From IMG/VR virus record IMGVR_UViG_3300033388_001993, positions 1 through 23,526 of that record: a stretch of 23,526 nucleotides of DNA; one strand, written 5' to 3'. The notes beneath the pieces were generated by a model that was given only the letters and a program-made list of their open reading frames with translations, made no database searches and was not told where the DNA came from. Positions 1 through 21,833 of this stretch are shown here, in pieces. How positions within the stretch are numbered: the first letter of the stretch is position 1; the number at the start of each line of letters is the position of its first letter. The translations under genes were made by a program, and so were the position numbers. The stretch comes from a virus.

Positions 1-1158
1 TTCTTCTTCAATTTTAGGTGAAGTATTGGTATCTGTATAAACTTTTGATACATTTTGAATAGAAACTACATAATTTTTATTATGAATATCCCATCCACCT
101 AATATTTGACTTTTATATTTATTAACTAATAAAACTTCACCTTGTGGTTGATCACCTGCAATAGGTTTATTTAATACTACTCTACAATATACATTACCTC
201 CCGAAGACCAAGGAGAAACTGATACTACATAATATTCATTATTTGGAGTAGGTGAAATACCTTGAGGATCATAATAAAAACTGGATCCAATTTTTATAGA
301 ACAACAACCACCTTCTACATCTATAACCCAATTATTACCACTACCGGTACCAAAAGGATCACCAGTTATTATTGTGCCAGTTATAGATTCAGAAAATTGA
401 TCATCATTAATTGATGCTAATTCATCTCTAAAATAATCGTTCATACCATATGTCGATATTTCAGTTATACCGTCTCTAGATAGTCTTAAAATGCATCCTC
501 GGTTACGATCTGCAAAATATTTTTGAAATCCGTATATAGCAAAACTTTCTGGATTAGTACTAATACCATATTCACCTAAGTATGGAACAACTTGCCCTAT
601 TACTACGTTTGATTGAGTTTGCATAGCTGACCCCTCAGCAGTATATATAGCATCTTTATCTATCAAAGCTCTATGTACTTTATTTTCTTGAAATATTATT
701 AAATTCGTATCTTCAGCATACAACTTCTGTATAGAACCATTTATTGGATCTACACTTTTTGTTATATCTTTAGCTACAGAAAATACATTGGTTTGGTTTA
801 TACCAGTCCTAGAGTTATATATACCAGAATATATTAATGAACTAAATAAATGTTCTTGTTTTGTTCTTTCTTCTACTATGTAAGCTTTAACACCTAAATC
901 TATGGGCGTATTATTAAAACCTCCTTTTATCCTCATTTCTTCAATAGCCCATGGTTCTTGATAAGCATATCCTTCTCCTTGATAACCAATAGGAGCAAAC
1001 TCTCCACCATTAAAAGGAAAAGTTGGATAACCTTGAGGATTCCAAGGCAAGCCAGGCCAACCCGGTAAAACAACGTTAGCTGTATCGATATCAGGTTTTT
1101 TACAAACTTTCTTTAACCAAAAAGAGTTAAAGTATTTTATTTCCATTACTACTCCCAT
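1..1158 (-). CDS. Tail nozzle/stabilisation-type protein, 3'-truncated by the window edge
   Basis: The frame is open from an ATG at 1158 to position 1, giving 386 residues with the C-terminus outside the window. The ATG overlaps the stop of the preceding gene as TAATG, which decides the start; a second ATG lies at 1146. Residues 110-170 contain YSGIYNSRTGINQTN, KLYAEDTNLIIFQENKV and RALIDKDAIYTAEG, and residues 200-245 contain FADRNRG, LRLSRDGITEIS and YGMNDYFRDEL. I associate these with the later part of large tail stabilisation ('muzzle') proteins of short-tailed Bacteroidota phages; that is recollection, not a search. It follows the 1251-aa and 399-aa genes almost without gaps. It may be the distal half of a protein that is one chain in relatives, here separate. 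Role inferred: tail nozzle of the virion. Confidence 0.7.
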   Translation of the reverse strand, partial: MGVVMEIKYFNSFWLKKVCKKPDIDTANVVLPGWPGLPWNPQGYPTFPFNGGEFAPIGYQGEGYAYQEPWAIEEMRIKGGFNNTPIDLGVKAYIVEERTKQEHLFSSLIYSGIYNSRTGINQTNVFSVAKDITKSVDPINGSIQKLYAEDTNLIIFQENKVHRALIDKDAIYTAEGSAMQTQSNVVIGQVVPYLGEYGISTNPESFAIYGFQKYFADRNRGCILRLSRDGITEISTYGMNDYFRDELASINDDQFSESITGTIITGDPFGTGSGNNWVIDVEGGCCSIKIGSSFYYDPQGISPTPNNEYYVVSVSPWSSGGNVYCRVVLNKPIAGDQPQGEVLLVNKYKSQILGGWDIHNKNYVVSIQNVSKVYTDTNTSPKIEEE

Positions 1159-2357
1159 TATAATATAGCTTTAGTGTTAAAACTACCATCTTGTAGAATT
1201 AAATATCCTATTGCTGGAGTTGGTTGGTTTTTCTTGTTAGCTCCACTACCACTTCCATTCCATTGATATAATATTCCACCTGGTCTTTTGTCGTTATTAA
1301 TAGGTCTATTAATAGAAGCACCGTTTGTATTATCAGCAAACTGAGCAAATAAAGCTGAAATAACTACAAACAATCTATCTCCTTGATTTAAAGCAATGCT
1401 AGGAACATTTATATTATATTGGTTATTACTTTTAACTCCACTAAAACTATTAATTCTATTACCAAAGTTTACTGGACCTTCAAGACCCCACCATGATCCC
1501 ATTTGACTATAAAATTCACCATAATTTGCTAATCCATAATGACTAGTTGGATCATATACCCATCCACTAGCTGTATTCCCATCCCAATATCTAGGAACCT
1601 TCATTTGTGTAGGATAAGTAAAAGCTACTTTTGGAATCATTTCTTCATTAGCAAAGTTTGATGGAAATTCTTTTTCAGCTTTCATACTACCAGTACCACT
1701 CATCAAACCACCGCTACCACTTGAAAAATTATGTCCACCCCAACTAGCACCTTGATTGTATACTATTCCAAAAGGTGTTCTTGAAACTTGTTGAATGCCC
1801 GTCATGGGAGTATATAAACTACTACCATTCGCAAGAATTCTTTCTCCATAAGGAATCCAGTCAGTATTAGAAGCTGGTAATCTATATAGTGTAATGTATC
1901 CGCTTATTCCTCCATTGCTTTTAACTGGAGCTGGATTGTTTTGATCTATTAAAGGCATAGCTGGGATAATAGAAAGAGCATGTTGAAGTTTTAAATCTAT
2001 ATCTATTTGATAGTCTCTATTTGCAGGTACTGTCCACACACCAGTGTTATCATAAGAATTACTCCAATCTTTTACAGTATTACCAAAATTTACTAAATTA
2101 TTTATTCTATTTCCCTTCGTTAAACCAAACTGGTTATACATATGTGCACTATTGGAAACGGCAGCAGAATCCCATTCCTCCCATATTTGAATAGAATCTC
2201 TAGGTCTCCACATCGGAGTTGGTGGATTTGAAGGCCATCCACTTTGACTATCTCCATTCCATTGCCATTTTGGGGCATTACATTCTAGGTAATTCCTCAC
2301 TTTAACAAAAAATGTTATTTCTTTTTCTAGACTATTTGCGGTTTTTGATCCTGCCAT
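1158..2357 (-). CDS. Virion/tail protein with two C1q-like jelly-roll motifs, possible receptor-binding protein
   Basis: This 399-residue protein has no signal peptide or membrane segment and is rich in Gly, Asn, Trp and Ser. Two stretches resemble each other: VNFGNTVKDWS...WTVPANRDYQIDIDL at about 89-121 and VNFGNRINSFS...YNINVPSIAL at about 296-323. Each is a VNFGN strand, then a 'VP' turn and a hydrophobic strand (in the second copy continuing as GDRLFVVISAL), as in C1q/TNF-like jelly-rolls where the fragment 'GVFTAPVNGTY' is typical. I infer two related beta-sandwich domains joined by a Gly/Ser-rich linker (about 200-225). The gene sits between two parts of the tail nozzle set, 2 bases after the 1251-aa gene and overlapping the next gene by TAATG. 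A receptor-binding or nozzle-decorating role is inferred. It could equally be a domain split from the giant tail protein. Confidence 0.55.
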   Translation of the reverse strand: MAGSKTANSLEKEITFFVKVRNYLECNAPKWQWNGDSQSGWPSNPPTPMWRPRDSIQIWEEWDSAAVSNSAHMYNQFGLTKGNRINNLVNFGNTVKDWSNSYDNTGVWTVPANRDYQIDIDLKLQHALSIIPAMPLIDQNNPAPVKSNGGISGYITLYRLPASNTDWIPYGERILANGSSLYTPMTGIQQVSRTPFGIVYNQGASWGGHNFSSGSGGLMSGTGSMKAEKEFPSNFANEEMIPKVAFTYPTQMKVPRYWDGNTASGWVYDPTSHYGLANYGEFYSQMGSWWGLEGPVNFGNRINSFSGVKSNNQYNINVPSIALNQGDRLFVVISALFAQFADNTNGASINRPINNDKRPGGILYQWNGSGSGANKKNQPTPAIGYLILQDGSFNTKAIL

Positions 2358-2359
2358 GA

Positions 2360-5300
2360 TTAAAGTATTTGTAAATTTTGTTGAGGTTCTGCTACAGGGT
2401 TATTAGTTCCAAAAGGATCCCAACAATCTGTATATCTAATAGTTATTTTAAAAATATCTCCATCTACAAAATCTCCCGCAGGACAATTAGCGAAGTTTGA
2501 TTTTAACATATTATATGGATATCCTGGTTCAGCAGTAGTTACAATATTACCGGCTAAATGAAAATAATCTAATGCTACGTTGTTAACGTGTGTAAATTCT
2601 TCTAAATCCGAATTAGGATCATCTGGGTTTATGGGTCTTACTAGAGTTTGACTAACTATTTGTGCATGTAATTCTCCAGCGTTGTTTCTACCAACGGGAC
2701 TTGATCCATAGTTATCGTGTGTCCATTGATCATAATCGAAACATTTACTTCCATCAAACCAAGATCCGTTACCCATAGGTAATCTTATCCAATTAATTTC
2801 TCCTAAATTTATATATTGCTCTAATGCGGTATTTAATATTTCGTTATTGCTAAGTTGGTTTATGTTAAGATAATTAACACCAAGTGCTGTACCATTAAAT
2901 GGATATCCACCGTCAACCCAATCTCGTGGATAATTAAAACTTGGACCTGGACTCCAAATACCTGGTATACCTGACCATGGTTCAGGATCTTCGTATCCAG
3001 TCCCACCTGCTGGAGCCGCAGAAAGTGATGGATTATTTGGGTAATTAGGTACGTTGAGTGGTACATCAATTCCACTTTTATCAATCTCAAAGTCATCCTC
3101 TGTTGGAACCCATCCAGCAAAGGGTATTGTATTTTTAGTTGATGCTTCTAATTCGACTATATTAGTAGATCCAGCATCTGTAACCGTAAAAGTGAATTTA
3201 TAATCATTAAACCAATCATTTTTAGAAAACCAAAAAGTATCACTTAAAACTATAAATGCTTGATAAGGATCAACTCCCGCTGGTGGAAATTGACTACTTC
3301 CATTATAACTTGGCCACCATGCTTGAATCTCAAAACTACTAGAGCAATCAGCCCAACCCGAAGTCCAAGTAACTCCTGTAGGTGGAACTTTTCTCTCTAC
3401 TTTGTGTAATTGAATAAAAGCTCCTCCTGTTCCTTGTCCAATAGTTTGCCCTAAATTATTAACAAAGTGAAATACTGTAGATACTTGGTTTCTTTGTTGA
3501 TTATAATCATAACTCATCGCAAAAGCATCCCAAGGACACCGATCTTCTGTAAAAGTAAATGGTGTTACAGACCACGATTCACCTGTAGGATTAGTTGTGT
3601 CTACCACAACATCATTAGAATCTTCTATTACATCATTTAAATCTTTAACTAAACCAGTGGTAGAAGTTTCCCAAAATAATCTTAATCTAGATACTTCAGG
3701 TTCTGTCTCATAAATTGCTAATGTAGGTAACTTTTTAGTTGACGGCATACCTACTAAATAATCTTCAACTTCTAGTCTAGCACAAAGTGGATTACTTTGA
3801 GGATTATATATATATGTAGGAAATTGTCCTACCTCCCACAATCCTAAATCCGTTCCTGTACCTATATTAACAACAACATCCTGTAGTATTCCAGGATAAA
3901 ACTGTTCATTTTCATGTCCAGTATGCTCAAATCCAGAATCTCCACCAATATTATCAACTCTTAAATACATTCCTAAACTAGCATTAGAACCAGTATCAGG
4001 TTCAATAATTCCAAGATCTATATTACGTTGTAATATAAAATTTCTAGCTTCTAAAGAGTCCCAATCATCAAATTTAGCTTCTGTAGCTTCTCCTTCTTCA
4101 TTGGCTACAGCATACCATAAGGGATTTTCTACTTTAGTAGGTTTACTAGTTCTAAATATCTTTTGATTTGGACCTACATTTTTTAAATCTCTAGGAACTT
4201 TATTAATATTATCTCCTTGTAGTGTTATATGAGCATAAGGTTGATTTGCAGTTGCAGGATCTGCTATTGGTTCTGGATCGTCTCCTGGAACGAGAACCTC
4301 CCATTTTGAACCACCATTTAGTATTCCAGGAAAATATATATTATAATAATTTTGTTCTTGTTGTTTTACTACCACCTTGTAACTATACCATCCTAGTGGG
4401 TTAGTATCTTCATTATATACACCAGGTTCTCCTGTTTCGTTGTTATATTTAAAAACTTGCGAAACTAATACATTATTAAACAACACTCTTAAAGCGTCTC
4501 CAGGCCAACTATATGGAGCAATCGGATTAGCACTTATAATTGAATGTGGGTTATATTTATGAAATACTGTAGAACCAGAATATAACGCGTTAGATGGAGT
4601 TTGACCACTATCGACACTAGACAATAAAACTGAAGATTGTCTACCATAACGATCAGATAATACTATCCCAACTTGATAAGTTCTATTCTGCTTAAGAGTA
4701 TTATTAGGATACTCTATTATATTATTTATATTAAATTCTGGTAAATAGAAATTCTCTTCTTCTTTTTCACCAACTAAGACATTATAATCTATATTTGCAG
4801 GTGGAGTATGTTTATTTACAAAGTTGCCATATATTACCCTATTCCCTGAAACTTCTTGTGTTGCAGCTCTAATGGGTACTTTATCGTATACTCTAGTAGT
4901 ATCATCTGTTGGTAATGTTTTATAAGGTTTTGATGAATTATATATATATTCCATCACATTGGTAGTATTCGGAATTGCTTGAGATGGAGGAGTATAATGA
5001 CCAGTAACTGTATCTAGTCCTCCATATTCAAAAACTTCACTTGATAATGTATCTACAACTTTTACAGAAAGTCCATCTGATTCTCTATATAAAATATCTA
5101 TTCCTACAACTTTTAATTTACTATATAATTCGTTAAAAGGTATTCCATCAGGAGATTCTATCATTAAAGTAATTACATTTACTTTATTTTCAAAAAATCT
5201 AACTTCTGTACTTTGATAAGTAATATCTTCATCATTTTTACCTACAATTGGATCTGGAGCATGCTCTGGATCAAATTCTGACATAAAATAACCATCTTGT

Positions 5301-6115
5301 TTAGGTATAAATGCTGTTTGAGTAAATGGAGCCATTAAAGAGAATTCACCATCTTCATATTTAAATCTATAACTAAATCTTAGAAACTTGTCTTTAATAA
5401 AATTAGGATCTCCTCGCCATGCACTATCATAATCTGGGTTGATATTACCATCTGGTAATTTTTCATCTACTACATTTATCATAGTACCTTCTGGACCGTA
5501 ACCTGGATTATCTTTAATTAGTCTAATACATTTATATGGATAATATTTAGCAACAGATATATGATCTTCAGCAGTGTAATATGTAGAATTAGCATAAGCC
5601 GTTCCAATGTTTATTTTTCTAGGTTGATTTCTGTTATCAGTCCAAAATAGTAATTCCTCAACAACATTAACATGGTTAATAGGAAAATTCTTAGCAAAAT
5701 TCAAAAAGCCTCCGGCTGCTCCTGCTCCTCCTACTAAAACTTGTGACGTATTATTTTTAATATCATATATACTAATGGCAGAATAATAGTTAAAAACTCC
5801 TGCACCAATTTGTACATATCTATTATCTAATCCGTTACTTGAGTTATCTATAAAATTAGTTAAAAAAACAATAATCCTATCATTAGTGACATCCATATAT
5901 CTACCAATCACCTCTACATTACAGCAATTACCAGGTATATTAAAAATAGTTAATAAATTATTACCTAATACATTTTCTAATGCACCGACGTTTGCCCCTT
6001 CTGATCTACTTATTTGGATATTTTGGCCGTCTCTGTATTCTCCAGGTGGAACTAATCTATCATCTAGATCTTTGTTCATCTTTGATTTGATGAACACATT
6101 TTTTGCCTTTGCCAT
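2360..6115 (-). CDS. Giant tail stabilisation/muzzle-like structural protein (1251 aa)
   Basis: This is the largest gene in the window. Its N-terminus carries IKSKMNKDLDDRLVPPGEYRDG and then NIQISRSEGANVGALENVLGN (residues 9-51), a pattern I associate with large tail stabilisation or nozzle proteins of short-tailed phages, functionally like P22 gp10 or T7 gp12. The rest is mostly beta-rich and contains many Trp, Pro, Asn and Gly residues, without transmembrane segments. Roughly residues 850-1150 are especially aromatic and low in charge, like an exposed tail domain. It starts at a TAATG overlap with the stop of the 431-aa connector gene, so the two are probably translationally coupled. Role inferred: forms the nozzle below the connector rings. 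The following 399-aa and 386-aa ORFs may belong to the same structure. Confidence 0.75.
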   Translation of the reverse strand: MAKAKNVFIKSKMNKDLDDRLVPPGEYRDGQNIQISRSEGANVGALENVLGNNLLTIFNIPGNCCNVEVIGRYMDVTNDRIIVFLTNFIDNSSNGLDNRYVQIGAGVFNYYSAISIYDIKNNTSQVLVGGAGAAGGFLNFAKNFPINHVNVVEELLFWTDNRNQPRKINIGTAYANSTYYTAEDHISVAKYYPYKCIRLIKDNPGYGPEGTMINVVDEKLPDGNINPDYDSAWRGDPNFIKDKFLRFSYRFKYEDGEFSLMAPFTQTAFIPKQDGYFMSEFDPEHAPDPIVGKNDEDITYQSTEVRFFENKVNVITLMIESPDGIPFNELYSKLKVVGIDILYRESDGLSVKVVDTLSSEVFEYGGLDTVTGHYTPPSQAIPNTTNVMEYIYNSSKPYKTLPTDDTTRVYDKVPIRAATQEVSGNRVIYGNFVNKHTPPANIDYNVLVGEKEEENFYLPEFNINNIIEYPNNTLKQNRTYQVGIVLSDRYGRQSSVLLSSVDSGQTPSNALYSGSTVFHKYNPHSIISANPIAPYSWPGDALRVLFNNVLVSQVFKYNNETGEPGVYNEDTNPLGWYSYKVVVKQQEQNYYNIYFPGILNGGSKWEVLVPGDDPEPIADPATANQPYAHITLQGDNINKVPRDLKNVGPNQKIFRTSKPTKVENPLWYAVANEEGEATEAKFDDWDSLEARNFILQRNIDLGIIEPDTGSNASLGMYLRVDNIGGDSGFEHTGHENEQFYPGILQDVVVNIGTGTDLGLWEVGQFPTYIYNPQSNPLCARLEVEDYLVGMPSTKKLPTLAIYETEPEVSRLRLFWETSTTGLVKDLNDVIEDSNDVVVDTTNPTGESWSVTPFTFTEDRCPWDAFAMSYDYNQQRNQVSTVFHFVNNLGQTIGQGTGGAFIQLHKVERKVPPTGVTWTSGWADCSSSFEIQAWWPSYNGSSQFPPAGVDPYQAFIVLSDTFWFSKNDWFNDYKFTFTVTDAGSTNIVELEASTKNTIPFAGWVPTEDDFEIDKSGIDVPLNVPNYPNNPSLSAAPAGGTGYEDPEPWSGIPGIWSPGPSFNYPRDWVDGGYPFNGTALGVNYLNINQLSNNEILNTALEQYINLGEINWIRLPMGNGSWFDGSKCFDYDQWTHDNYGSSPVGRNNAGELHAQIVSQTLVRPINPDDPNSDLEEFTHVNNVALDYFHLAGNIVTTAEPGYPYNMLKSNFANCPAGDFVDGDIFKITIRYTDCWDPFGTNNPVAEPQQNLQIL

Positions 6116-7410
6116 TATTTAATTATTTTAGATTTACCTCTCATTACTTGGGTAATCTCTTCAATTTTTATATTAGACAACCGTATCTTAGCATTTCTTA
6201 AAGCAGCTCTCCTATCTCTTTTAAATCTTTGTACAACATATTCTGGTTGACGAATTCTGCTAGCTAATATACTATATGCAATATGCATGTATAAAGCTTG
6301 TTCTGCTAATTTAGGTATTTTACTATTTTCATCATGCGCTAATCCATCAGATATATATTCTAATAATATTAATTTTCCTCCTAGATTGCTGCTAAAAGAA
6401 AACTTACCCTCTCTGTCATTTATAGTAAACCATCCATTTCCTTGTGATGTCTCTGGATCTAAACCATATTTCTGACCAAACCACGTGTTCCAATATGGAT
6501 AAATGTTACCATAATAAGCATTCATTTCATATAAGTCAATGTTAGGATCATTAGACATAGTATTCCAACGCTCTTCCATTAATGATGTTCCTTGTATATT
6601 TTCTCCTTTTAAAGAACCATCAGGATACAATACATCATCTTGTATTGGAATACCTTTATCGTCTTGAATAGGGAGATGTGTGGGATTTGAAGTTAATCTA
6701 GTTGGATATATTATGTGAGTTACCCCAGATGAATCTATCCAAGACAACTTAACATAATTAACATAGTCTTGAGGTATGACTACTGATAAACTAGGTGGGA
6801 TTGTTAATTCTTGAGAGTTAACACTTTTTAATGTATCATAACTAAATTCTTGTAAACCTCTTTTAGCATGAAACATAACATCGGTTCTTTTAACACTAGG
6901 TATTATCTTATCTTGTCCAACATATGCAACCATAAAGTTGTTGACTACATCTTCTAAACTAGTATACTGATAACCTCCATATTGCGCAAAAGAATCTGTA
7001 TTATATAAATTCTTTAATCTTACTCTTATGTAACTTGGAGATGGATTTACACCGTCATAATTTACTGCATTTGGATTTGCAAATGTTATAACATTGTCAT
7101 TTAATGTAAAGTAACCTCCACTTCCAGTTATACCAACTGAACCGTTTCCTGGAAATTGACCATCATATTCTAACCATGTAGAATTATCTGGACTTGTTTC
7201 TAATATAAAGTTATTTAGTTGATAATAAGGACTCATTGATGGTGTTGCTGGCGCTGACCATGAGCTACTACCTGGATTCAGTAAGTCTACATATCCAAAT
7301 GCTAAATCAATATCCCAAGTAAAAGCATATATACCTGTACCATTAGGATCAAATACCATGGATTGCGTACCTACATAGTATTGTTCGTTAGTTTCGTTTA
7401 TTAATCCCAT
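6115..7410 (-). CDS. Head-tail connector/ring protein with an extra N-terminal beta domain
   Basis: Residues from about 148 to the end (YTSLEDVVNNFMVAYVGQDK... FHAKRGLQEFSYDTL... WFTINDREGKFSFSSNL... GKLILLEYISDG... ALYMHIAYSILASR... FKRDRRAALRNAKIRLSN) look like the adaptor or ring proteins that extend the portal in podoviruses (P22 gp4 / T7 gp11-like role). The C-terminal 60 residues are helical and very basic. Residues 1-147 are different: Gly/Pro/Ser-rich, beta-prone, with NNFILETSPDNSTWLEYDG and FTLNDNVITF, and read like an appended virion-surface domain. The preceding 263-aa gene ends 6 bases upstream, and the stop overlaps the next start as TAATG. The connector assignment rests on motifs and position; the exact ring it forms is not known. 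Confidence 0.7.
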   Translation of the reverse strand: MGLINETNEQYYVGTQSMVFDPNGTGIYAFTWDIDLAFGYVDLLNPGSSSWSAPATPSMSPYYQLNNFILETSPDNSTWLEYDGQFPGNGSVGITGSGGYFTLNDNVITFANPNAVNYDGVNPSPSYIRVRLKNLYNTDSFAQYGGYQYTSLEDVVNNFMVAYVGQDKIIPSVKRTDVMFHAKRGLQEFSYDTLKSVNSQELTIPPSLSVVIPQDYVNYVKLSWIDSSGVTHIIYPTRLTSNPTHLPIQDDKGIPIQDDVLYPDGSLKGENIQGTSLMEERWNTMSNDPNIDLYEMNAYYGNIYPYWNTWFGQKYGLDPETSQGNGWFTINDREGKFSFSSNLGGKLILLEYISDGLAHDENSKIPKLAEQALYMHIAYSILASRIRQPEYVVQRFKRDRRAALRNAKIRLSNIKIEEITQVMRGKSKIIK

Positions 7411-7416
7411 ATCTTA

Positions 7417-8208
7417 TTAACTTTTTTCTGATACTTCATCTTGTTGTGCTTTTTGAGATGCCATTTGTACAATCTGAGGATCGCGTACTATAACTCCAGC
7501 ATACATTAATACATTTAACACAACCTCGGACTGTTCTGAAGCGTGTAATTCAAAATTTGTTGAACCTTCAGGACCCGCTACACCGTTCCATTCTGTAGTA
7601 TCATATTCAAATTGCCCAAGTGTTCCGGGATTATAACCCCATTTAACATTTTGAGGTTTCCTAATACACGTAGTTGAAATAGGTGTATATGGGATTGTAG
7701 TATCACCAACTATTGTTTTTGGATATACATATATTCTATGATTTTCATAAGTATATACTGGATAAGTAATAGTAGGTTTGGTTAGTGGAGATTTATTTAT
7801 GTATAGTAATTCATTTGGTTTAGCCCTTTGTACCTCAGTGTTATTATATATAACAGTACCAAGTTTATAAAATTCAATAGGTAAGGTAGGAATATTATTT
7901 ACTATTATACTAGCAGGGTATGTACCAAGATCTGGTTCTTCGTAATATTCATTTACATTCCAAGCACAATCACCGTTAGTTTTAAATATATCTAACTTCT
8001 CCTCTATATTGTCTATTCTATTACCATACTCAGTATCGTTATCTTGGATTCTTGAGTATTGATTTAAGTCCTCAAAATACTTTTCAAATATCTCTAATTG
8101 AACTTGCGTTGCTATCTTGTTAAACTCTTCTGGCGTTAGATAACCCCTTTGTTCTTTATTTAATACGTATAGAACAGTTTTGTATACGTCATCTACGTTT
8201 ATTGCCAT
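7417..8208 (-). CDS. Putative head-tail connector/ring protein (263 aa)
   Basis: The N-terminus is helical (INVDDVYKTVLYVLNKEQRGY, then LTPEEFNKIATQVQLEIFEKYF, residues 3-45). A coiled stretch and a beta-rich middle follow (TLPIEFYKLGTVIYNN, YPVYTYENHRIYVYPK). The C-terminus returns to a helix with VLNVLMYAGVIVRDPQIVQMASQKAQQDE. I recognise this architecture as a conserved neighbour of the connector gene in crAss-like and marine Bacteroidota phages, where it is thought to form one of the rings between portal and tail. The gene starts 18 bases beyond the T-run of the minus-strand terminator at 8227-8251, so it depends on read-through or on a promoter I cannot identify. Product class is inferred; no catalytic motif is visible. 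Confidence 0.55.
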   Translation of the reverse strand: MAINVDDVYKTVLYVLNKEQRGYLTPEEFNKIATQVQLEIFEKYFEDLNQYSRIQDNDTEYGNRIDNIEEKLDIFKTNGDCAWNVNEYYEEPDLGTYPASIIVNNIPTLPIEFYKLGTVIYNNTEVQRAKPNELLYINKSPLTKPTITYPVYTYENHRIYVYPKTIVGDTTIPYTPISTTCIRKPQNVKWGYNPGTLGQFEYDTTEWNGVAGPEGSTNFELHASEQSEVVLNVLMYAGVIVRDPQIVQMASQKAQQDEVSEKS

Positions 8209-8226
8209 TTTGTTTTATTTTTAAAT

Positions 8227-8251
8227 AAAAAAGGCGGCGATTAAGCCGCCT
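8227..8251 (-). terminator. Intrinsic terminator after the 256-aa gene
   Basis: On the minus strand a 7-bp perfect stem, AGGCGGC paired with GCCGCCT around a 6-base loop, is followed at once by TTTTTT. The stem is almost pure G/C in otherwise A/T-rich DNA. It lies 30 bases downstream of the stop of the 256-aa gene and 18 bases upstream of the next start. It therefore sits inside the structural block rather than at its end. Confidence 0.85.
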
Positions 8252-8280
8252 ATAATATAGTTACATACTAAAGATCTTTT

Positions 8281-9051
8281 TTAATTAATCTTCTTCTCTA
8301 TAGACTTGTACACTTCTAAACCTTCATCGGTTTTAAAGAACGCAGCCATAGCAGAATATGGGTTTTCATCAAAAGGTACCGTCATTAGTTTTCTACCATT
8401 ACTACCCCAATTGAATGTTCTTTGATCACTAGCGAGTTTTAATATACCTAGTTCTGTTGCTTTAATAGCAAAATTTCTAAGTATAACATTTTCATCATTA
8501 GCTAGTTCAATAAACAATCTAGGATTTCTCTTAGCAAATACTAATATGTCTCTTTTTAATTCTTTAGAAGATAAATTAGAAACATTTGATCCTATTTCAA
8601 CTCTAAGAATTGCTTCAGCTTGATCTAATTCTATAGCTTGAGCCGCGACTAGGGCTTCTATTTCTAGATTTAAATCTTCTAATTCATCTTTAGCTACTTC
8701 ACGATTATCGTGTTCTGCAAATCTTTTACCTTTAAGAGGATGTACTTCTAACATCCTTTGCAGATTTTGTTGCTGCATAGGGACATGTAAAGTTCCTTGA
8801 TCAAAAACTATATGAGCTAATGTTACTGGACCTTCTTGTTCGTCTACGAACGGTGAAACTTGATTAGTAGCATATCTTAAAGCTCTTTGTATTCCTTTCT
8901 CTTCGTCATAATAAAGTAAAGGTGCTTTTGTAGTATGTTTTGAATTCATTGTATAACTTAATGGCGACATGTCATTAAGTAGATAGTAGTATCTATCTTT
9001 CATTTCCCATTCTTTAGTTTGAACAGGAGTTTGTACTTCTTCGTTTTCCAT
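8281..9051 (-). CDS. Conserved phage protein of unknown function (256 aa), insulated by terminators
   Basis: The protein is soluble, with an N-terminal part containing WEMKDRYYYLLNDMSPLSYTM and APLLYYDEEKGIQRALRYATNQ, a central helical part (ELEDLNLEIEALVAAQAIEL), and a well-ordered C-terminal part with KRNPRLFIELANDEN, RNFAIKATELGI and RTFNWGSNGRKLMTVPFDEN. I recognise the pattern as a protein recurring near capsid genes of marine and gut phages, but know no established function. It is not secreted and has no catalytic signature that I can name. The gene is flanked by strong minus-strand terminators at 9073-9100 and 8227-8251, a layout found nowhere else in the window. That suggests its level is set separately from the capsid genes. 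A head-completion, cargo or regulatory role cannot be distinguished. Confidence 0.75.
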   Translation of the reverse strand: MENEEVQTPVQTKEWEMKDRYYYLLNDMSPLSYTMNSKHTTKAPLLYYDEEKGIQRALRYATNQVSPFVDEQEGPVTLAHIVFDQGTLHVPMQQQNLQRMLEVHPLKGKRFAEHDNREVAKDELEDLNLEIEALVAAQAIELDQAEAILRVEIGSNVSNLSSKELKRDILVFAKRNPRLFIELANDENVILRNFAIKATELGILKLASDQRTFNWGSNGRKLMTVPFDENPYSAMAAFFKTDEGLEVYKSIEKKIN

Positions 9052-9052
9052 G

Positions 9053-9070
9053 ATATAATATAATATAATA
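9053..9070. repeat. A/T pentamer tandem repeat in the leader of the 256-aa gene
   Basis: The plus strand reads as about 3.5 copies of ATATA with a period of 5. It fills the space between the terminator hairpin and the ATG at 9051. It may simply be an A/T-rich translation leader as used in Bacteroidota; it could also hide a promoter -10 element, but no matching upstream element is visible because the terminator occupies that place. Confidence 0.5.
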
Positions 9071-9072
9071 GT

Positions 9073-9100
9073 TAAAAAGACCCCAAATTAATGGGGTCTT
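9073..9100 (-). terminator. Intrinsic terminator after the 105-aa head gene
   Basis: On the minus strand an 8-bp perfect inverted repeat, AAGACCCC with GGGGTCTT around an 8-base loop, runs into a short T-run (TTTTT then AAC). It lies 16 bases beyond the stop of the 105-aa gene and 21 bases before the ATG of the 256-aa gene. It would trim transcripts that carry the capsid protein and 105-aa genes, leaving only read-through for the downstream connectors and tail genes. Confidence 0.85.
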
Positions 9101-9116
9101 ATATTAATTGTAGTTG

Positions 9117-9434
9117 TTATGCGTAACTAGTGATCAAAGCTACTTCGTCAGCGACTAAATATGCGTCGGTTTCTGAAGTTATACTTTTCACATCTGGAAT
9201 AGCATAAGGTTCTGCTACACCTTCTTCAATTGCATCTGTAAATTGAACTCGAGCAGCAGCAGCTAACGCTCCAGTTGTACCAAACACACCGGATTGTACA
9301 TCTATCGTTACTACTCCACCACTCTCCTCTGCTACAGTAAACTGCGTAGCGCTAGCGCCAGCAACGGTAAGAGGTATAGTTATGTCATAAATTTGACTAA
9401 GAGGTGCTGTTGATGTTATTTTCATTAAAGCCAT
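9117..9434 (-). CDS. Small head protein, candidate capsid decoration/auxiliary protein (105 aa)
   Basis: The short, acidic, Ala/Val/Thr-rich protein begins MALMKITSTAPLSQIYDI and continues with alternating hydrophobic strands (ITIPLTVAGASATQFTV, VVTIDVQSGVF). It lacks Cys, a signal peptide and membrane segments. Position right after the major capsid gene, 26 bases away and before a strong terminator, fits a protein made in large amounts with the capsid, such as a decoration or minor head protein. This is inference from location and composition; I do not recognise a named family. Confidence 0.65.
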   Translation of the reverse strand: MALMKITSTAPLSQIYDITIPLTVAGASATQFTVAEESGGVVTIDVQSGVFGTTGALAAAARVQFTDAIEEGVAEPYAIPDVKSITSETDAYLVADEVALITSYA

Positions 9435-9460
9435 AGTTTCTTATTTTAAAAGATTAATAA

Positions 9461-10927
9461 TTACGCTGTGAATTCTACGAAGTTATTCGCAGCTTGAACA
9501 CACAGACATCTTTCAGATAAGAAGTGTACTTCCATAGCATCTAAATCAGAAGTGTAAGCACCACCAACAGATCCAGTAATCCAGGATTTATATCTTCTAT
9601 CATCAGTTTGCGAAGCTCTATACCTCACATGTAAGAAAGGTCGTCTAATGTTTTGACCAAGTAATTGATCATAAACAGTAGATGTTCCAGCTGGAACCAT
9701 TACTCCTCTTATATTGTCAACCATTCCACGAGTTGAAGCATCATTTAGATATTTCCAATCAGTTTTGTAGAAGTCATAAGAACCTCTTCTAAACCCAGAA
9801 AATCCAAAGTTTAATGCCATCTCGCCAGAGTTGTCAAATAAACCATAAGAAGCAGCAGTAGTAGCGGCATAACCTCCACCAGCTTGAGCTGCAATCATAT
9901 CATCAAAGTCAAGAGCAGTTGCTCTGTCTAAGAATAACATGTTCTCTTCAATAGCACCCTGTGCATCTAATTGAGAAAGTATAGCATCAAAATCAGCTAA
10001 CGCGCCAGCTCCAGGAGCAGCAGCACCAGCAAATCCTTGCCATACATTACCTCTTGTTTCAATTGCTTGAAATAAACCTTGCGTACCACCAATATTGACA
10101 GTATTAGCATCAACTGATATACCACCAGTAGCTGCAACAGAAAGTTCACCTTCAACCATTGCCATTTCAAGATAATCCTCGTAACGCAACCTTGTTTCAG
10201 ATTCAGCTTTTAGATACCATAAGTATCCTGATGTTCCATCTTCAGTAGCAACTTCAACCCAACCAATTTGAGCAGTGTCAGATCCTGAGATCTCATACTT
10301 ATCTTTTATAATTATTGGTTTGTTATGAAATTGTGTGAAAGCTGGATCAACAGCTCCATCTAATCCTTGTGTTCCTTTAGCAAATTCAGATCCATAAACA
10401 AAGATGTTTAAGTCAGCACCTACAAAAGCAGCGGGCCAAACAGCTAATCCATATGGAAAAGCGTCAATCGTGGTTGCTGTTACAGAACCTGGTACTGTCA
10501 CTCCGTTAACTGGAGGTTCTACCAAGGCTTTAACAGTTGTATTAGATATGGGTTCATTAACTACAATAGTTTGACCTGCTCTAATAACATGAGCTGGTGT
10601 TGTTGGACCAGGTATGTGAGCTGGATCAATTGTTATTGTAGGATTATTATTAGCAGCTATAGTGTTTCCAGTATAACTAACATGTAATCTATTTTGTTCT
10701 GACCAAATTACTTGATCTGATGTCATAGGCATTTCAGCCCCGACCATCCTTAAGAAGCCAGATATGGTTCTATTACCAAATCTCTCGACTTCTTGTTCGT
10801 ATAACTCAGGAAGGTATTGTTGTGCAAAATCATTTCCACTTGAATCGGTGAAGTTTAAATAATTGTCTGACAATATTACCTGGTCCTGGTGCGGCTGTAA
10901 GTCCGCATTTTGTACTGTAAACGGCAT
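9461..10927 (-). CDS. Major capsid protein (HK97-fold type)
   Basis: At 488 residues this matches the capsid protein length of crAss-like phages. It follows the acidic scaffold gene by 18 bases. Visible features: a helical N-terminal section (YLPELYEQEVERFGNRTISGFLRMVGAEMP split over residues 38-68), a long Gly/Ala-rich middle with a helix (RYEDYLEMAMVEGEL) as in HK97-type cores, and a conserved ending VHFLSERCLCVQAANNF. Codon use is slightly richer in G+C than the surrounding genes, as often for highly expressed capsid genes. The upstream region is A/T-rich with no Shine-Dalgarno motif. The encoded protein is inferred to form the icosahedral shell. Confidence 0.88.
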   Translation of the reverse strand: MPFTVQNADLQPHQDQVILSDNYLNFTDSSGNDFAQQYLPELYEQEVERFGNRTISGFLRMVGAEMPMTSDQVIWSEQNRLHVSYTGNTIAANNNPTITIDPAHIPGPTTPAHVIRAGQTIVVNEPISNTTVKALVEPPVNGVTVPGSVTATTIDAFPYGLAVWPAAFVGADLNIFVYGSEFAKGTQGLDGAVDPAFTQFHNKPIIIKDKYEISGSDTAQIGWVEVATEDGTSGYLWYLKAESETRLRYEDYLEMAMVEGELSVAATGGISVDANTVNIGGTQGLFQAIETRGNVWQGFAGAAAPGAGALADFDAILSQLDAQGAIEENMLFLDRATALDFDDMIAAQAGGGYAATTAASYGLFDNSGEMALNFGFSGFRRGSYDFYKTDWKYLNDASTRGMVDNIRGVMVPAGTSTVYDQLLGQNIRRPFLHVRYRASQTDDRRYKSWITGSVGGAYTSDLDAMEVHFLSERCLCVQAANNFVEFTA

Positions 10928-10945
10928 AATTTTTAGTTTATAAGT

Positions 10946-12136
10946 TTATAATTTTATTTTTTTTTCTTTTAATTTAGAACTATCTAATCCAGTAACTGCT
11001 TTTACTCTTAACCCATTAATATAAACGTTTCCATCAGCACTTTGCCTAGGTGTGTCATTTATATTTTTAGATTTAGCCATAACATCTTTTACAGCGTCGG
11101 CTTTACCTTGCTCATAGAAATGTTGTGCTATAGTATCTGCATTTTTAGCTGCATAGATAGCTTTGTGATAACCCTTGTGATCTTTAATAGTACCGTCTTC
11201 ATTTAAGAACCTCTTTATGAAATTAGCAATATCGGATTGTGTCTCCGCTAGTTCTTTAGGATTATTTATACCATACCTAAACTTCTTCTCACCCAAGTTA
11301 AACTCAAAACCTTTGAAATCTTGACTAAAGTAGTTTTTAGTAATGTTTTTAAATTCTTCGTGTTTCTTTAAAGAAACCTCTTGATCTTTATTATACTTAT
11401 TAAAAAATTCAATTGCTTTTCTATCTTCTTCTGTATTTGATGGTTTCAACTTGATCTCATCATAATACTTATTTTTAGTTTCTTCTAGGAAACTTTTAGC
11501 TTTAGCAACTTCTTCTTTATAAGCTAATTTCTTTTTCTTAATCTCTTTATCTTCATCATAATCTTCATCAACTTTAAATTGATCTTCTATAATGAATTCA
11601 ACCTCTTCTCTATTTAAATGAGGTTTAGTGACTTTGTAATACTCTTTAAGTAATATGTCGGAATCGACAGAATCGTAATCAAAATTAAGTCTAACATAGT
11701 CATTTATGTCTCCACCGGTATCACTCATAAAATTAACCAACTTTTCTAAGTTTTCAGGTAAATCAATTTTAGGTGTTGGTGGTTGTATAGTAACTGGTTC
11801 TTCAATCTTAGTTTCTCCAATTACAATTTCTTCATCTGTAATATCTTCTATTACTCCTCCGGTAGATTCTCCGGTAGGTAACCTTTCGGTGTCTCTTGTT
11901 CCCACTTCTTCGCCATTGCTGGGAAGTTCGCGTACATCCACGCTCTCTGTGCTTGGCTCTTGAATGGCATCTTCTTCAGTTTTAGTTTCTTCTTCTTCTT
12001 TTTTGGTTGATAGATCTACTTTAATTACTTCATCTTTACTAGTAAACTTTTTAGGTTTTTTAACTTTTAGTTTTTCTATCTTTGTGTCAACTATTGGTTC
12101 TTCTCTGACTACTAATTCTTCTTGTTCTTCTTTCAT
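10946..12136 (-). CDS. Capsid assembly scaffold-like protein (396 aa)
   Basis: The protein is highly charged and rich in Glu and Lys. Residues 1-120 are low-complexity and probably disordered (EEEETKTEEDAIQEPSTES). Residues 165-270 are long charged helices (EVEFIIEDQFKVDEDYDEDKEIKKKK). The C-terminal part has HKAIYAAKNADTIAQHFYEQ, GKADAVKDVMAKSKNIND, then GNVYINGLRVK and a basic tail. Location between portal and capsid, acidic coiled composition and a basic C-terminus fit a scaffold that binds the inner face of the capsid protein and is removed later. No protease gene is visible here, so how it leaves the head is unknown. A short segment around 11880-11960 is richer in G+C than its surroundings. 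Confidence 0.8.
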   Translation of the reverse strand: MKEEQEELVVREEPIVDTKIEKLKVKKPKKFTSKDEVIKVDLSTKKEEEETKTEEDAIQEPSTESVDVRELPSNGEEVGTRDTERLPTGESTGGVIEDITDEEIVIGETKIEEPVTIQPPTPKIDLPENLEKLVNFMSDTGGDINDYVRLNFDYDSVDSDILLKEYYKVTKPHLNREEVEFIIEDQFKVDEDYDEDKEIKKKKLAYKEEVAKAKSFLEETKNKYYDEIKLKPSNTEEDRKAIEFFNKYNKDQEVSLKKHEEFKNITKNYFSQDFKGFEFNLGEKKFRYGINNPKELAETQSDIANFIKRFLNEDGTIKDHKGYHKAIYAAKNADTIAQHFYEQGKADAVKDVMAKSKNINDTPRQSADGNVYINGLRVKAVTGLDSSKLKEKKIKL

Positions 12137-12148
12137 GATATTATATAA

Positions 12149-14569
12149 TTATATATTTTCTGGTGGAGGTTGCAAAGACGCATCTTGCTCCATTTTTTGA
12201 TCTATAGTTTCTGGGGTTATTTCAAAGTTTTTTGGTAATAAATTATTTTTTCTTTGGTCAATTAATTCACTTTGTTGACTAGCTTGTATTTTAGTTCTAT
12301 TATCTTTTCTATTTTCCTTTTCCCCATCAACTTGTAATCTAGTTTGAGAATCTAATTGTGCTAATTGCATATCGTAACTAAACTTCTGTTCAGCTAATTG
12401 CATTTTTATTTGACCTTCTTGTTGCAATAGTTGTATATCAAATTGCGATTTTCCTTGTTCAATTTGCAGTGTTGTTTGTGCTATAGCTTGTTGTTTTTGC
12501 GCTTCAGCCATTGCTGTTGCTTGAGCTGCCTCAGCTTGAGCTTGAGCTTGAGCTTGCATTTGTTGTTGAGCTATTTGTTGATCTATTTTTTGTTTTTCTT
12601 GTCGTTTTATCTTAAGTAGTTTATTTGCTAATTTAAGATTTTTTACATTCCTGACATCTATAGCATCTTCTAAGTATATTTGGTTCTGTTGAAGAGCCAT
12701 TTGAATATTTTGCTCTAATAGTGCTTTTTCTTCATCATCTGGTTCAAGTTCTAAGTATATTCCAAAATCATATAAATGTAAATTATACATTTCTTCTAAT
12801 GTACCTACATTATAAGCTGTTATACTATTAATTAAAGCTTCCCTTGTTAGATCAAACTCTAAACAATCTGATATCCTTAGCGTAATATTTTCACATGCTC
12901 TTAAAGTGAGATACAAACTAGCATCTAAAATATGTCTAGTAGCAGTGTTTGAGTTAGCAGCTGCTAATTTTTGTAATCCTACTAATGATTTCTCATTTGG
13001 CATACTACCATCTCTAGCTTCATTTAATCCGGTTACATCCCTTATCATTTGTAAATAGTACTGATATGTACCTATTAATGATTGAATTTTAGCTTGACCG
13101 TTAGAACTAGATAATTCTTGTATAGGTACTTTTCCGTGATTTAAATCACCGTCTTGTGTCATGGACCTACCAACTACACTACCAGTTTGAAAGTACATGT
13201 TAAGCGCTTCAGCAGGATTATAATTTGTACCATTACCTAAGTCTATCTCTGCTAAACCATCCACATCTAAAAATACACCATCTGGAACTATTTTAGATAA
13301 TACTTGTTGAAGTTTTATATGTGTTATCTGAATCATGTCAGCAAATCCCATACACTTGCTAACTATAGATTCAATTCTCCCTTTATACATTCTAGGAGCA
13401 GTTATATTATAGTTCATATTAACCTTAGTCAAGTTTGACTTAGGTCTTGTCATATTTTCAGCTAATCTCCAATCTAATAATTGATCATATCCTAAAACTT
13501 TAGCGCCAGAATATAGTACTTCTATTGATCTTGATACCTTATCGAACTTATCACTTTCTGGAGGATTAAAACCACTTGGTTTTTCTAAAGCTTTTTCTAA
13601 TCCTTGGTCAGTGTATTTTATTTTAAATACTTGATCACTATACGTTTTGTATTCAAAAAATAATACATATATAGTGTTACCTTCATTTCTACCACCCCAA
13701 CCTCTTGTATAATTATTATTACCGTTGTATTTTTCTATTTTTAATAATTCATCATCAGAAATGTGAGGCCAATATTTTTTTATCTCTCCTAATGTTAATG
13801 CTTTTATTTCTCCTACATACCATATATCTTCGAAATTTGGATCTTCTGTATATGAATATACCAAATTAGCTGGATCTACATATTCTACAACTACGCCTTC
13901 TGATTTGTTGTAACCAGTTTTATTAGCACCGATACCTATAGTAGTTAAATCCTGGTTAAATCTATGTTGTATTAAATTATATTTATTTCTTTGTAACGTA
14001 TTGTTTATAGCTTCTTCTTCTGCAATCTCTATAGCTTGTTTATAGTCTAATTGCATATGGACCTCTAATTCCTCTTCACTTTGAGGAGAGGTTTCCGCAT
14101 TTTCTATTTGAGATATATCGTATCCTAAATTATTTTTAACTGATTTATGATAATCTTTTAATGCTATATTTCTAAGTATACTATCAGCATAGTCTGTTCT
14201 ATTCTTCCTAGAGACTGGATCTTGTGAGAATGCTTTTATATCATAATTTCTAGCAGCCATACCATTTACTACAATATCTACGAACTTAGATAAAACAGGT
14301 ATTGGTTTCCAATCTAGATTCAAATATGATAAATCACCATTAATGGATAATTCATCTTTATATTTTTGAACTGGTTGTTCTCCTCTAGCGTATAATCTTC
14401 TAAAATGAAAATTATTATAATTTACAGAAAACCTACTACCAGAATTATAACCATGAAACCACTCTCCTTCTACAGCTCTCGCTACTTGTAGTCCATAGTC
14501 ATAACTTTGTTTTACTTCATCAGGTACAACCTGATCAGGAAAAGAACTATTAGTACCAGTATTAATCAT
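12149..14569 (-). CDS. Portal protein (806 aa) with glutamine-rich C-terminal coiled coil
   Basis: The dodecameric portal is the DNA entry channel of the head. The ATG directly abuts the terminase stop (TAAATG). Visible segments include PVLSKFVDIVVNGMAARNYD (91-110), the wing region with YVDPANLVYSYTEDPNF (230-246), IDWKP-like contacts, a stem/crown section MYKGRIESIVSKCMGFADMI (394-413), and the conserved RDVTGLNEARDGSMPNEKSL followed by QKLAAANSNTATRHI (510-547). Residues about 640-770 form a long Gln/Ala-rich coiled coil with QAQAQAQAEAAQA, ending Pro-rich. About 800 residues is typical of crAss-like portals. The coiled-coil tail may project into the head; this is inferred. Confidence 0.9.
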   Translation of the reverse strand: MINTGTNSSFPDQVVPDEVKQSYDYGLQVARAVEGEWFHGYNSGSRFSVNYNNFHFRRLYARGEQPVQKYKDELSINGDLSYLNLDWKPIPVLSKFVDIVVNGMAARNYDIKAFSQDPVSRKNRTDYADSILRNIALKDYHKSVKNNLGYDISQIENAETSPQSEEELEVHMQLDYKQAIEIAEEEAINNTLQRNKYNLIQHRFNQDLTTIGIGANKTGYNKSEGVVVEYVDPANLVYSYTEDPNFEDIWYVGEIKALTLGEIKKYWPHISDDELLKIEKYNGNNNYTRGWGGRNEGNTIYVLFFEYKTYSDQVFKIKYTDQGLEKALEKPSGFNPPESDKFDKVSRSIEVLYSGAKVLGYDQLLDWRLAENMTRPKSNLTKVNMNYNITAPRMYKGRIESIVSKCMGFADMIQITHIKLQQVLSKIVPDGVFLDVDGLAEIDLGNGTNYNPAEALNMYFQTGSVVGRSMTQDGDLNHGKVPIQELSSSNGQAKIQSLIGTYQYYLQMIRDVTGLNEARDGSMPNEKSLVGLQKLAAANSNTATRHILDASLYLTLRACENITLRISDCLEFDLTREALINSITAYNVGTLEEMYNLHLYDFGIYLELEPDDEEKALLEQNIQMALQQNQIYLEDAIDVRNVKNLKLANKLLKIKRQEKQKIDQQIAQQQMQAQAQAQAEAAQATAMAEAQKQQAIAQTTLQIEQGKSQFDIQLLQQEGQIKMQLAEQKFSYDMQLAQLDSQTRLQVDGEKENRKDNRTKIQASQQSELIDQRKNNLLPKNFEITPETIDQKMEQDASLQPPPENI
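12534..12556. repeat. Hexanucleotide microsatellite in the portal gene
   Basis: GCTTGA is repeated almost four times on the plus strand; on the coding strand this gives TCAAGC units encoding alternating Ala-Gln in the portal's C-terminal coiled coil. Copy changes would keep the reading frame and alter helix length by two residues each. Confidence 0.85.
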
Positions 14570-16795: not shown

Positions 16796-17070
16796 TATTT
16801 AGATCTTTTTTCAGGTGATATAGAATATGATCTCTTTGGTATTTCTTCTTTTGGTTTTCCTTCCAGCATAGCTTCTTCTTCTTCCATTCTATTTAAAATT
16901 TCAAAAGCGTCAAATATAGCTAACTTTTTTGTAGCTGCAGCATTCTTAAGTCTATCCGCTGATATGTCATCAGGCGTGTCAATTATAGGTTCTTTAGCAA
17001 CTTTGATTAATTCATCAACCGCCACTTGCCCAGCTTGGATTATATTCTTCTTCGTTTCCTTTATATTCAT
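16795..17070 (-). CDS. Small terminase subunit candidate (91 aa)
   Basis: The small mainly helical protein has AGQVAVDELIKVAKEPII (13-30), then DISADRLKNAAATKKLAIFD (35-54) and AFEILNRMEEEEAML, ending with a basic tail KPKEEIPKRSYSISPEKRSK. The position immediately before TerL with a TAATG overlap, small size and helical make-up match a small terminase subunit that recognises phage DNA and regulates TerL. No helix-turn-helix can be named with certainty, so this remains inferred from context. The 5' 56 bases overlap the end of the GroES-like gene in another frame, which limits change in both proteins. Confidence 0.55.
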   Translation of the reverse strand: MNIKETKKNIIQAGQVAVDELIKVAKEPIIDTPDDISADRLKNAAATKKLAIFDAFEILNRMEEEEAMLEGKPKEEIPKRSYSISPEKRSK

Positions 17071-17620
17071 GCTTTATAACAATATCATTTGATTTCATAC
17101 AATATAGTCTCTCATCATCTATAACCATCTCGAATTGTCTATTTGGTTTAAATGTAACAAGAGTACCATTTGATATACCTAAGTCATTTAAAGTATTGTT
17201 ATCATATTTTACTATACCAGTACAATATTCTTCAACACTATTTATAACCTTAGATCTATTTAATATAGGTTTAACAAAGCATCTATTAAAAACAGTATTC
17301 CACTTATCATTTCTAAAATAAGCATAAACTTGATCAATAGCACAAAAGTACATATTATCTTTAAAGTAAGATCTGCTATTCTTTTCAACTCCCTTTATAT
17401 CATAAAATCTTCTAAATACATTATGATGTATAATGATTATATCACCTTTACTTATTGGTGTATTTATGTTTGAAGGTGTTGATATAACTAAAGCTTCCTT
17501 GTTAACCGCTTTAAAATTTTCGATATTAGTATTGGTTATTAAAGTTTTATCACCAACTTTTATACTATTATTATATCTATTGTTTATCGGTTTTACTATA
17601 AAGTCATATAGACTATTCAT
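17015..17620 (-). CDS. GroES-like co-chaperonin with two GroES-like halves (201 aa)
   Basis: Two successive segments each resemble the GroES fold. First half, about 7-100: FIVKPINNRY, ALVISTP, ISKGDIIIIHHNVFRRFYD and DNMYFCAIDQVYAYF. Second half, about 115-186: FVKPILNRS, CTGIVKYDN, LGISNGTLVTFKPN and MVIDDERLYCMKSNDIVIKHEY. The ordering 'K-P-[IL]-x-[ND]-R ... new strand ... GD/NGxxVxF ... IDxExLYxMxxxDI' is that of GroES, in which the last strand pair ends in the 'EYLIMREDDIL' element. Phage co-chaperonins such as T4 gp31 replace host GroES so the host GroEL can fold the capsid protein; that role is inferred here. The mobile loop in the first half (~50-56) is not clearly recognisable. Starts 8 bases before the end of the preceding gene. 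Confidence 0.55.
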   Translation of the reverse strand: MNSLYDFIVKPINNRYNNSIKVGDKTLITNTNIENFKAVNKEALVISTPSNINTPISKGDIIIIHHNVFRRFYDIKGVEKNSRSYFKDNMYFCAIDQVYAYFRNDKWNTVFNRCFVKPILNRSKVINSVEEYCTGIVKYDNNTLNDLGISNGTLVTFKPNRQFEMVIDDERLYCMKSNDIVIKHEYKGNEEEYNPSWASGG

Positions 17621-21000: not shown

Positions 21001-21162
21001 TTAAGGGGATGTTTCTATTTTTACTAAATCAACACCAACTTCAATTAAAACTAGTTCGCTTTTAGCTTCTTGCTCTATAAATATTTCTACTACAGGAGGT
21101 GCTGATCCCCCTCTTTTTTTAAAAGCAGGTACTGTGTTTACGTTACTGTTTATTAACGGCAT
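21001..21162 (-). CDS. Small conserved-position ORF (53 aa)
   Basis: A short frame begins MPLINSNVNTVPAFKKRGG, has a hydrophobic/acidic core SAPPVVEIFIEQEAKSELVL, and ends IEVGVDLVKIETSP with TAA. Its ATG overlaps the stop of the 223-aa gene as TAATG, and it fills nearly all of the 174-base space before the 406-aa fibre start (13 bases remain). These are the main reasons to believe it. It could act as a small linker or decoration for the fibre; I know no homologue. Confidence 0.6.
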   Translation of the reverse strand: MPLINSNVNTVPAFKKRGGSAPPVVEIFIEQEAKSELVLIEVGVDLVKIETSP

Positions 21163-21833
21163 TAATACATTGCTACAATATCATTAAGAGATCCGCCCCA
21201 TACTGTAACAGTAAGTGCTTTTATAGGTAAGAAAGTACCAGCTTGTACGCCTAAAAATTGAACTGTTTTATTTGGAATACCAGTCATTTCATCAACAGGA
21301 TCTTCTAATATAACTGTTATATTACCTGTAACACCCACATATAATGTTGCACCTTCTTTGTTAAAAAAGTGCTCATTAACACCAACTAAATATCTAGTTG
21401 AATTTTCTCTCATTACAGAATCTAATGGTGCTCCTTTAACTATACCTAGCGGAGATAAAGGGTCACCTAAAGCCCATGGTGTTCCAACTGCTAAATTAGC
21501 TTGTATCAATTCTAAGTATGCTCCTTCACCAAGACCACCTATTGAATCAATACGAACTATATCACCCGCTTTATAACCTTCACCACCAGCGGTAACACTT
21601 ACTATTGTTATAACACCAAGTACCGCTGTAACATCAACTGTTAATCCTATTCCTGAACCACCTGTAGTAGTAACACCAGCGGTTGGACCCGCGGGATAAT
21701 CTTGACCAGCAGAAGCTAACTGCGGAGTCAATACCCCACTTACTATACCCCAGGTGCTATCTAAGTCACTTAATCTGGTTGCAGAATGTGTAAAAACCCT
21801 AGGTTCCTTTAACATTGTCCCAATTAAACTCAT
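21162..21833 (-). CDS. Spike-base-like head/virion protein (223 aa)
   Basis: The C-terminal 40 residues, TVQFLGVQAGTFLPIKALTV followed by TVWGGSLNDIVAMY, match the shape of the spike-base domain of gene transfer agents and related phages ('LPxVxAGxxLPIrVxxVxxxGTtAxxIvAL'). Residues 35-105 are a glycine-rich beta segment: SAGQDYPAGPTAGVTTTGGS and GGEGYKAGDIVRIDS, like beta-repeat modules seen in marine phage virion proteins. The middle contains STRYLVGVNEHFFNKEGATL. Probably a capsid-spike or fibre base to which the following fibre genes attach. The stop overlaps the next small ORF start (TAATG). The spike-base call is by pattern; no search was done. Confidence 0.6.
   Translation of the reverse strand: MSLIGTMLKEPRVFTHSATRLSDLDSTWGIVSGVLTPQLASAGQDYPAGPTAGVTTTGGSGIGLTVDVTAVLGVITIVSVTAGGEGYKAGDIVRIDSIGGLGEGAYLELIQANLAVGTPWALGDPLSPLGIVKGAPLDSVMRENSTRYLVGVNEHFFNKEGATLYVGVTGNITVILEDPVDEMTGIPNKTVQFLGVQAGTFLPIKALTVTVWGGSLNDIVAMY

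Follow-up and report, generated by a model that had tools for sequence, protein, structure and literature searches.

The muzzle of crassviruses is the hexameric ejection gate at the tip of the tail and has been described as a single large chain whose fold is unique. In crAss001, this protein is gp44, in whose domain layout a tip stretch is inserted into blade 3 of the propeller and exposed at the tail tip (PMC10172136). The tip is thought to touch the cell surface, and the ring-joining and propeller domains of gp44 are shared with the nozzle of phage T7 (PMC10172136). Within this study, the IMG/VR virus record IMGVR_UViG_3300033388_001993 was analyzed (positions 1 to 23,526; this 23.5-kb stretch is referred to as the window), which probably encodes a crassvirus-type muzzle consisting of two chains, with the fission fixed in a clade and the propeller completed in trans. 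Almost all genes of the window are located on the minus strand. Three tightly packed minus-strand open reading frames (ORFs) are transcribed in the order MUZN, MID and MUZC (Table 1). The MUZN/MID junction reads TAA-TC-ATG, corresponding to a gap of two bases, and MID and MUZC share a TAATG overlap, exactly as reported in an original prediction on this DNA.

Table 1. Features of the split muzzle locus and their positions in the window
Feature	Position	Strand	Size	Basis
MUZN, predicted N-terminal chain of split muzzle	2360..6115	-	1251 aa	
MID, predicted inserted gene, relatives not detected	1158..2357	-	399 aa	
MUZC, predicted C-terminal chain of split muzzle, truncated by contig edge	1..1158	-	386 aa seen	
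Last conserved MUZN motif before cut, ETEPEVSRLRLFWE	3668..3709	-	residues 803-816	regular expression
Hypervariable MUZN C-terminal tail	2360..3667	-	435 aa	tail comparison among relatives
MUZC core, common to single-chain relatives	409..951	-	residues 70-250	27-38% identity
MID repeat 1 (approximate bounds)	1758..2285	-		internal duplication and alignment
MID repeat 2 (approximate bounds)	1161..1652	-		internal duplication and alignment

Based on sequence comparisons, the two outer ORFs are assigned to the N- and C-terminal parts of a crassvirus-type tail muzzle (nozzle), in agreement with the original prediction. MUZN matches the profile phrog_14478 (1474 positions) at positions 2-181 with an expectation value (E) of 1e-51, and MUZC matches it at positions 917-1097 (E 3e-45). 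Since one PHROG profile is matched by both proteins at different positions, they represent parts of one protein. Furthermore, MUZN scored 38.1 bits against the Pfam family crAss_MUZ (PF25731), above the cut-off of 27, and in tblastn searches MUZN and MUZC each matched 87 phage records of equal organism make-up. For the comparison with gp44, nine crassvirus muzzles, the crAss001 protein first among them, were aligned; one of the nine, cr109, holds 18 recoded stops. In the resulting profile alignments, residues 1-172 of the MUZN family correspond to gp44 1-150 (probability 96.9, E 1.4e-10) and residues 110-426 of the MUZC family to gp44 1055-1354 (probability 98.7). The split pair is accordingly homologous to gp44 at both ends and collinear with it. 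However, gp44 is one chain of 1371 aa, whereas the window features two chains, the first of which ends at the cut in a long variable tail, and an inserted gene.

The Pfam family crAss_MUZ_C (PF25729) is carried by 22 of the 23 members of the MUZC alignment, the exception being the truncated copy of the window; complete MUZC proteins of relatives comprise 443-690 aa. A model of the complete MUZC protein from contig L004, whose MUZN and MUZC genes lie at 5482-9966 and 10001-11341, was calculated with 136 sequences and reached a mean predicted local distance difference test score (pLDDT) of 76.7, with values mostly around 90 from residue 110 onwards and poor values before. Its best match in the PDB was the crAss001 muzzle (7qok, E 3e-16), and it was followed by tail proteins from further short-tailed phages such as P22 (gp10) and T7. 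The short-tailed phage nozzles that match the model structurally (T7 gp12, P22 gp10 and SU10) are one chain and differ in being devoid of a tip domain of the muzzle kind. Searching PDB sequences with the profiles of the two families did not recover gp44; the lone weak match, protein G, was judged to be due to chance.

The closest named relatives of both halves, besides phrog_14478, are phi38:1 gp097, phi13:2 gp120, Gundel gp060 and the homologues of Elemovirus and ctfjg026. In six cultured or complete phages among those examined (phi38:1, elemoF, elemoA, ctfjg026, Gundel and phi13:2), both halves reside in one gene encoding 1324-1613 aa; a single long protein matching both ends does exist, and homologues of the two ORFs are not always separate and unrelated. 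These fused relatives align with gp44 at positions 1-393 and 1049-1265. Of the Ig-like domains and the crass fold that separate the propeller halves in the muzzle, the stretch up to position 393 spans IG1 and the start of IG2, and the remainder is without detectable similarity. Compared with single-chain proteins such as phi38:1 gp097, the MUZC core shows 27-38% identity to their C-terminal parts. MUZC starts with M...EIKYFNSFWLKK, followed by a variable segment ahead of the core, and the counterpart of this start in the fused proteins (FNCF.FGNGVES) is internal to the chain. A supposed split muzzle in the crAss-like phage cr108_1 was rejected, as it proved to be one long gene.

MUZN and MUZC were found as separate ORFs in all 182 IMG/VR contigs holding both (172 distinct MUZN proteins) and fused in none. 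The two genes adjoin directly in 173 of these, with spacings between -71 and 47 bases, while an intervening gene is present in eight rows, which represent seven contigs since L112 and L134 denote one contig, and one row (L065) has a broken MUZN. A scan of IMG/VR with the fused form as query returned 80 loci, 60 of which were fused, 19 contained the N-terminal part only and one a broken chain. In a FastTree phylogeny (174 sequences, 368 columns), one branch with a support of 1.0 parts 39 fused from 135 split sequences without exceptions, the single-gene homologues of Bacteroidota phages being placed on the other side of this branch from the split clade. Because crassviruses and the examined cultured relatives, except Panino, are fused and one branch divides both forms, a single ancient fission is the simplest account. 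The sequence data fit one such ancestral event fixed in a large clade. The earlier claim that the outer ORFs are two halves of a former single chain is thus supported by the cultured fused proteins, the fused environmental loci and the uniformly split contigs. No published split muzzle was found, albeit with limited coverage of the literature.

Two explanations would deny that the muzzle consists of two chains, and both are considered highly improbable. A single product could still be made by stop-codon readthrough or frameshifting, and recoded stops are indeed known in some crAss-like phages, the muzzle gene included (PMC12386605). However, the spacing between MUZN and MUZC modulo 3 is mixed (46/44/83 among the 173 adjacent pairs), all three stop codons terminate MUZN (TAA 142, TAG 38, TGA 2), the MUZC frame is stopped before a possible MUZN overlap in 147 of 173 pairs and the MUZC start is conserved, excluding this mechanism in the majority of contigs. 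The MUZC frame of the window extends just 10 bases into MID. An assembly error or a decayed gene in the window contig would likewise be hard to reconcile with the data: a few contigs seem to be broken, among them L065 with its MUZN pieces and L074, but the organization is the same across 182 contigs, whose MUZN proteins comprise 172 distinct sequences, and the sequence is conserved on either side of the cut. The split itself is therefore no error, whereas the insertion of MID is known from one contig.

By homology to gp44, the ring-joining domain and the first blades of the propeller would come from MUZN, along with the beginning of the Ig-like/tip region, and MUZC would contribute the remaining blades and the C-terminal domain. 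The cut presumably lies in the stretch that gp44 has inserted into blade 3, at the exposed tail tip. Since such a cut parts the first blades from the last, a closed propeller would need both chains, and two polypeptides would jointly form, in trans, the seven-bladed propeller holding the gate. MUZN would naturally make contact with the first 110 residues of MUZC, a segment without confident structure when modelled alone. Moreover, the termini freed at the tip may tolerate growth, in the form of the hypervariable MUZN tail and of a junction that takes up extra genes. The last conserved MUZN motif before the cut (ETEP..S.L.LFWE as a regular expression) occurs in 143 of 173 distinct MUZN proteins. 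Behind it, the tail varies between 32 and 1242 aa among relatives (median 522), and the mean column identity of 80 tails amounts to 7%. Cadherin matches were obtained for three and a bacterial Ig match for one of 80 relatives, and none for the tail encoded in the window.

Propellers completed by a blade from another chain are known from Sec13 in complex with Sec31 or Nup145C. The proposed split muzzle would resemble these complexes in that the propeller is finished in trans, without homology between the systems; Sec31 and Nup145C donate one blade, whereas the split muzzle would divide the propeller into two large parts. A stable two-chain muzzle in a large environmental clade would show where the gate tolerates a break and would provide a natural means to separate gate from tip experimentally. 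It also offers a way to test how a component of a viral machine evolves from one chain to several, the muzzle being the ejection gate of a very abundant group of phages. Furthermore, caution is advised in annotation, as half of the muzzle protein is located in the next gene.

Judged from its sequence, MID is not part of the muzzle chain and appears as an unrelated gene inserted at the junction; in relatives it is not the interior of a continuous chain, as nearly all of them have nothing between MUZN and MUZC. Relatives of MID were not found by phage tblastn, in an IMG/VR pattern scan, in Pfam, PHROGs or the PDB, or among the ORFs of neighbouring loci, and MID was seen in this window only; L002, which is most closely related to the window, does not carry it. 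Matches of MID in phmmer searches to MUZC or MUZN of L002, L033 and L032 (E 0.1-1.2) were weak and judged to be due to chance, and they lend no support to MID being a piece split off the end of a MUZN that is longer in relatives. The two C1q-like motifs previously ascribed to MID were not recovered: no Pfam family, C1q included, matched at E 1, and the PDB sequence match was at chance level. MID contains an internal duplication (Smith-Waterman score of 68 versus a shuffle mean of 35, none of 1000 shuffles as high, 32% identity), which may be what was taken for two motifs. A jelly roll and host binding are guesses for this protein. The base composition of MID resembles that of its neighbours, and an AlphaFold model of MID alone, calculated with no alignment, was unusable (pLDDT 29).

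In seven other contigs, different genes occupy the MUZN/MUZC junction; they belong to three more families, unrelated to MID and to each other, which marks the junction as a gene-insertion site. One family comprises proteins of 249-324 aa (L145 13207-13956, L147 13196-14086, L160 13390-14163 and L177 13178-14152), a second one nucleotidyltransferase-like proteins of 129-131 aa matching phrog_1614 (L181 13816-14205, E 2e-4; L188 13756-14151, E 4e-5), and the insert of L112 is a 221-aa orphan found solely in its own contig when searched elsewhere. Large gaps were counted in 9 of 182 rows at this junction versus 1 of 181 at each of the two junctions just upstream. These nine include the broken L065 and count one contig twice (L112/L134). 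The insertion excess is modest, and kinship leaves approximately three independent gains besides this window. The cassettes of L145, L147, L160 and L177 share a conserved stretch at the N-terminus as well as a GGxGYxxGD module; the latter was also observed in further virion proteins of these phages, among them the one encoded at 21162-21833 of the window.

It is tentatively proposed that a propeller assembled in trans is combined with a fission point serving as cassette site for phage-specific tip subunits, by which modules for host contact could be swapped with the gate left untouched. The insertion site at the break would make host contact at the muzzle tip directly testable through comparison or deletion of single small genes. 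The preferred but weaker reading of MID, with chances of about even, is an accessory subunit of the tail tip that docks close to the MUZN tail. Just short of an even chance is given to MID being a passenger without physical role in the muzzle, inserted at a gene junction that became a tolerated landing site after the cut. The mutually unrelated inserts, the nucleotidyltransferase-like family among them, and the lack of MID in L002 fit a passenger, but general tolerance would not lead one to expect that neighbouring junctions are interrupted far less, and the two repeats and fitting base composition of MID also speak against it. The original prediction went further, regarding MID as a host-binding subunit held between the nozzle halves, with the split existing to seat it. 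The cut does fall in the part forming the exposed tip in crAss001, which is the part thought to contact the cell surface (PMC10172136), but 173 contigs are split with nothing between the halves and MID matches neither C1q nor another binding domain, making this explanation unlikely. The split is old and general and MID is present in this window only, which does not support a split tied to or serving the inserted subunit. Nor do the tight junctions support synthesis of the three proteins in fixed proportion, as had been suggested, since junctions at other places of the structural operon are just as tight (at 6115, 14569/14570 and 16795).

Several results weigh against the two-chain gate with a cassette site for tip subunits. 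No significant match to gp44 was obtained for the middle of MUZN past residue ~170, and the exact position of the cut in the Ig2/tip region is therefore interpolated. MUZC of the window is incomplete and ends before the crAss_MUZ_C region, its C-terminal homology being drawn from the family. MID itself is without a fold, a relative or a sign of function, and the cassette of L181 and L188 resembles an enzyme rather than a structural component, which argues against all cassettes being tip subunits.

Contigs of this kind were binned with metagenome-assembled genomes (MAGs) of Flavobacteriales, Saprospiraceae and other Bacteroidetes, with single contigs in other bins. The split-muzzle clade consists of mostly marine phages, for which Bacteroidota hosts are likely because of this binning. 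L302 (PBPJ01000012.1) was located in a Woesearchaeota MAG and L299 in an Ilumatobacteraceae MAG, most likely due to mis-binning. In the cultured Maribacter phage Panino (L059), the C-terminal region of the muzzle extends over two annotated genes (9403-12243 and 12354-13316), which is due either to a sequencing error or to a break that arose independently at a different site. Further interrupted genes were observed in L065, where MUZN of the split clade is distributed over three ORFs (5679-9973), and in L258, where a chain of the fused clade is in pieces of 1296 and 234 aa (9116-13761); both are probably frameshift errors. In L074, MUZC is in two parts and the contig looks broken.

Upstream of the three ORFs in the sense of transcription, the window encodes the terminase large subunit, the portal, a head protein and more virion proteins. 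The terminase large subunit, the portal and a further virion structural protein match PHROGs 6681, 6547 and 13704. A gene for a GroES-like co-chaperonin (17015-17620, phrog_13932) adjoins the terminase gene, as is likewise the case in phi38:1. Moreover, the gene at 21837-22343, which starts with TTG, encodes a small membrane protein resembling holins and overlaps a gene at 22282-22881 whose product has a signal-peptide-like start.

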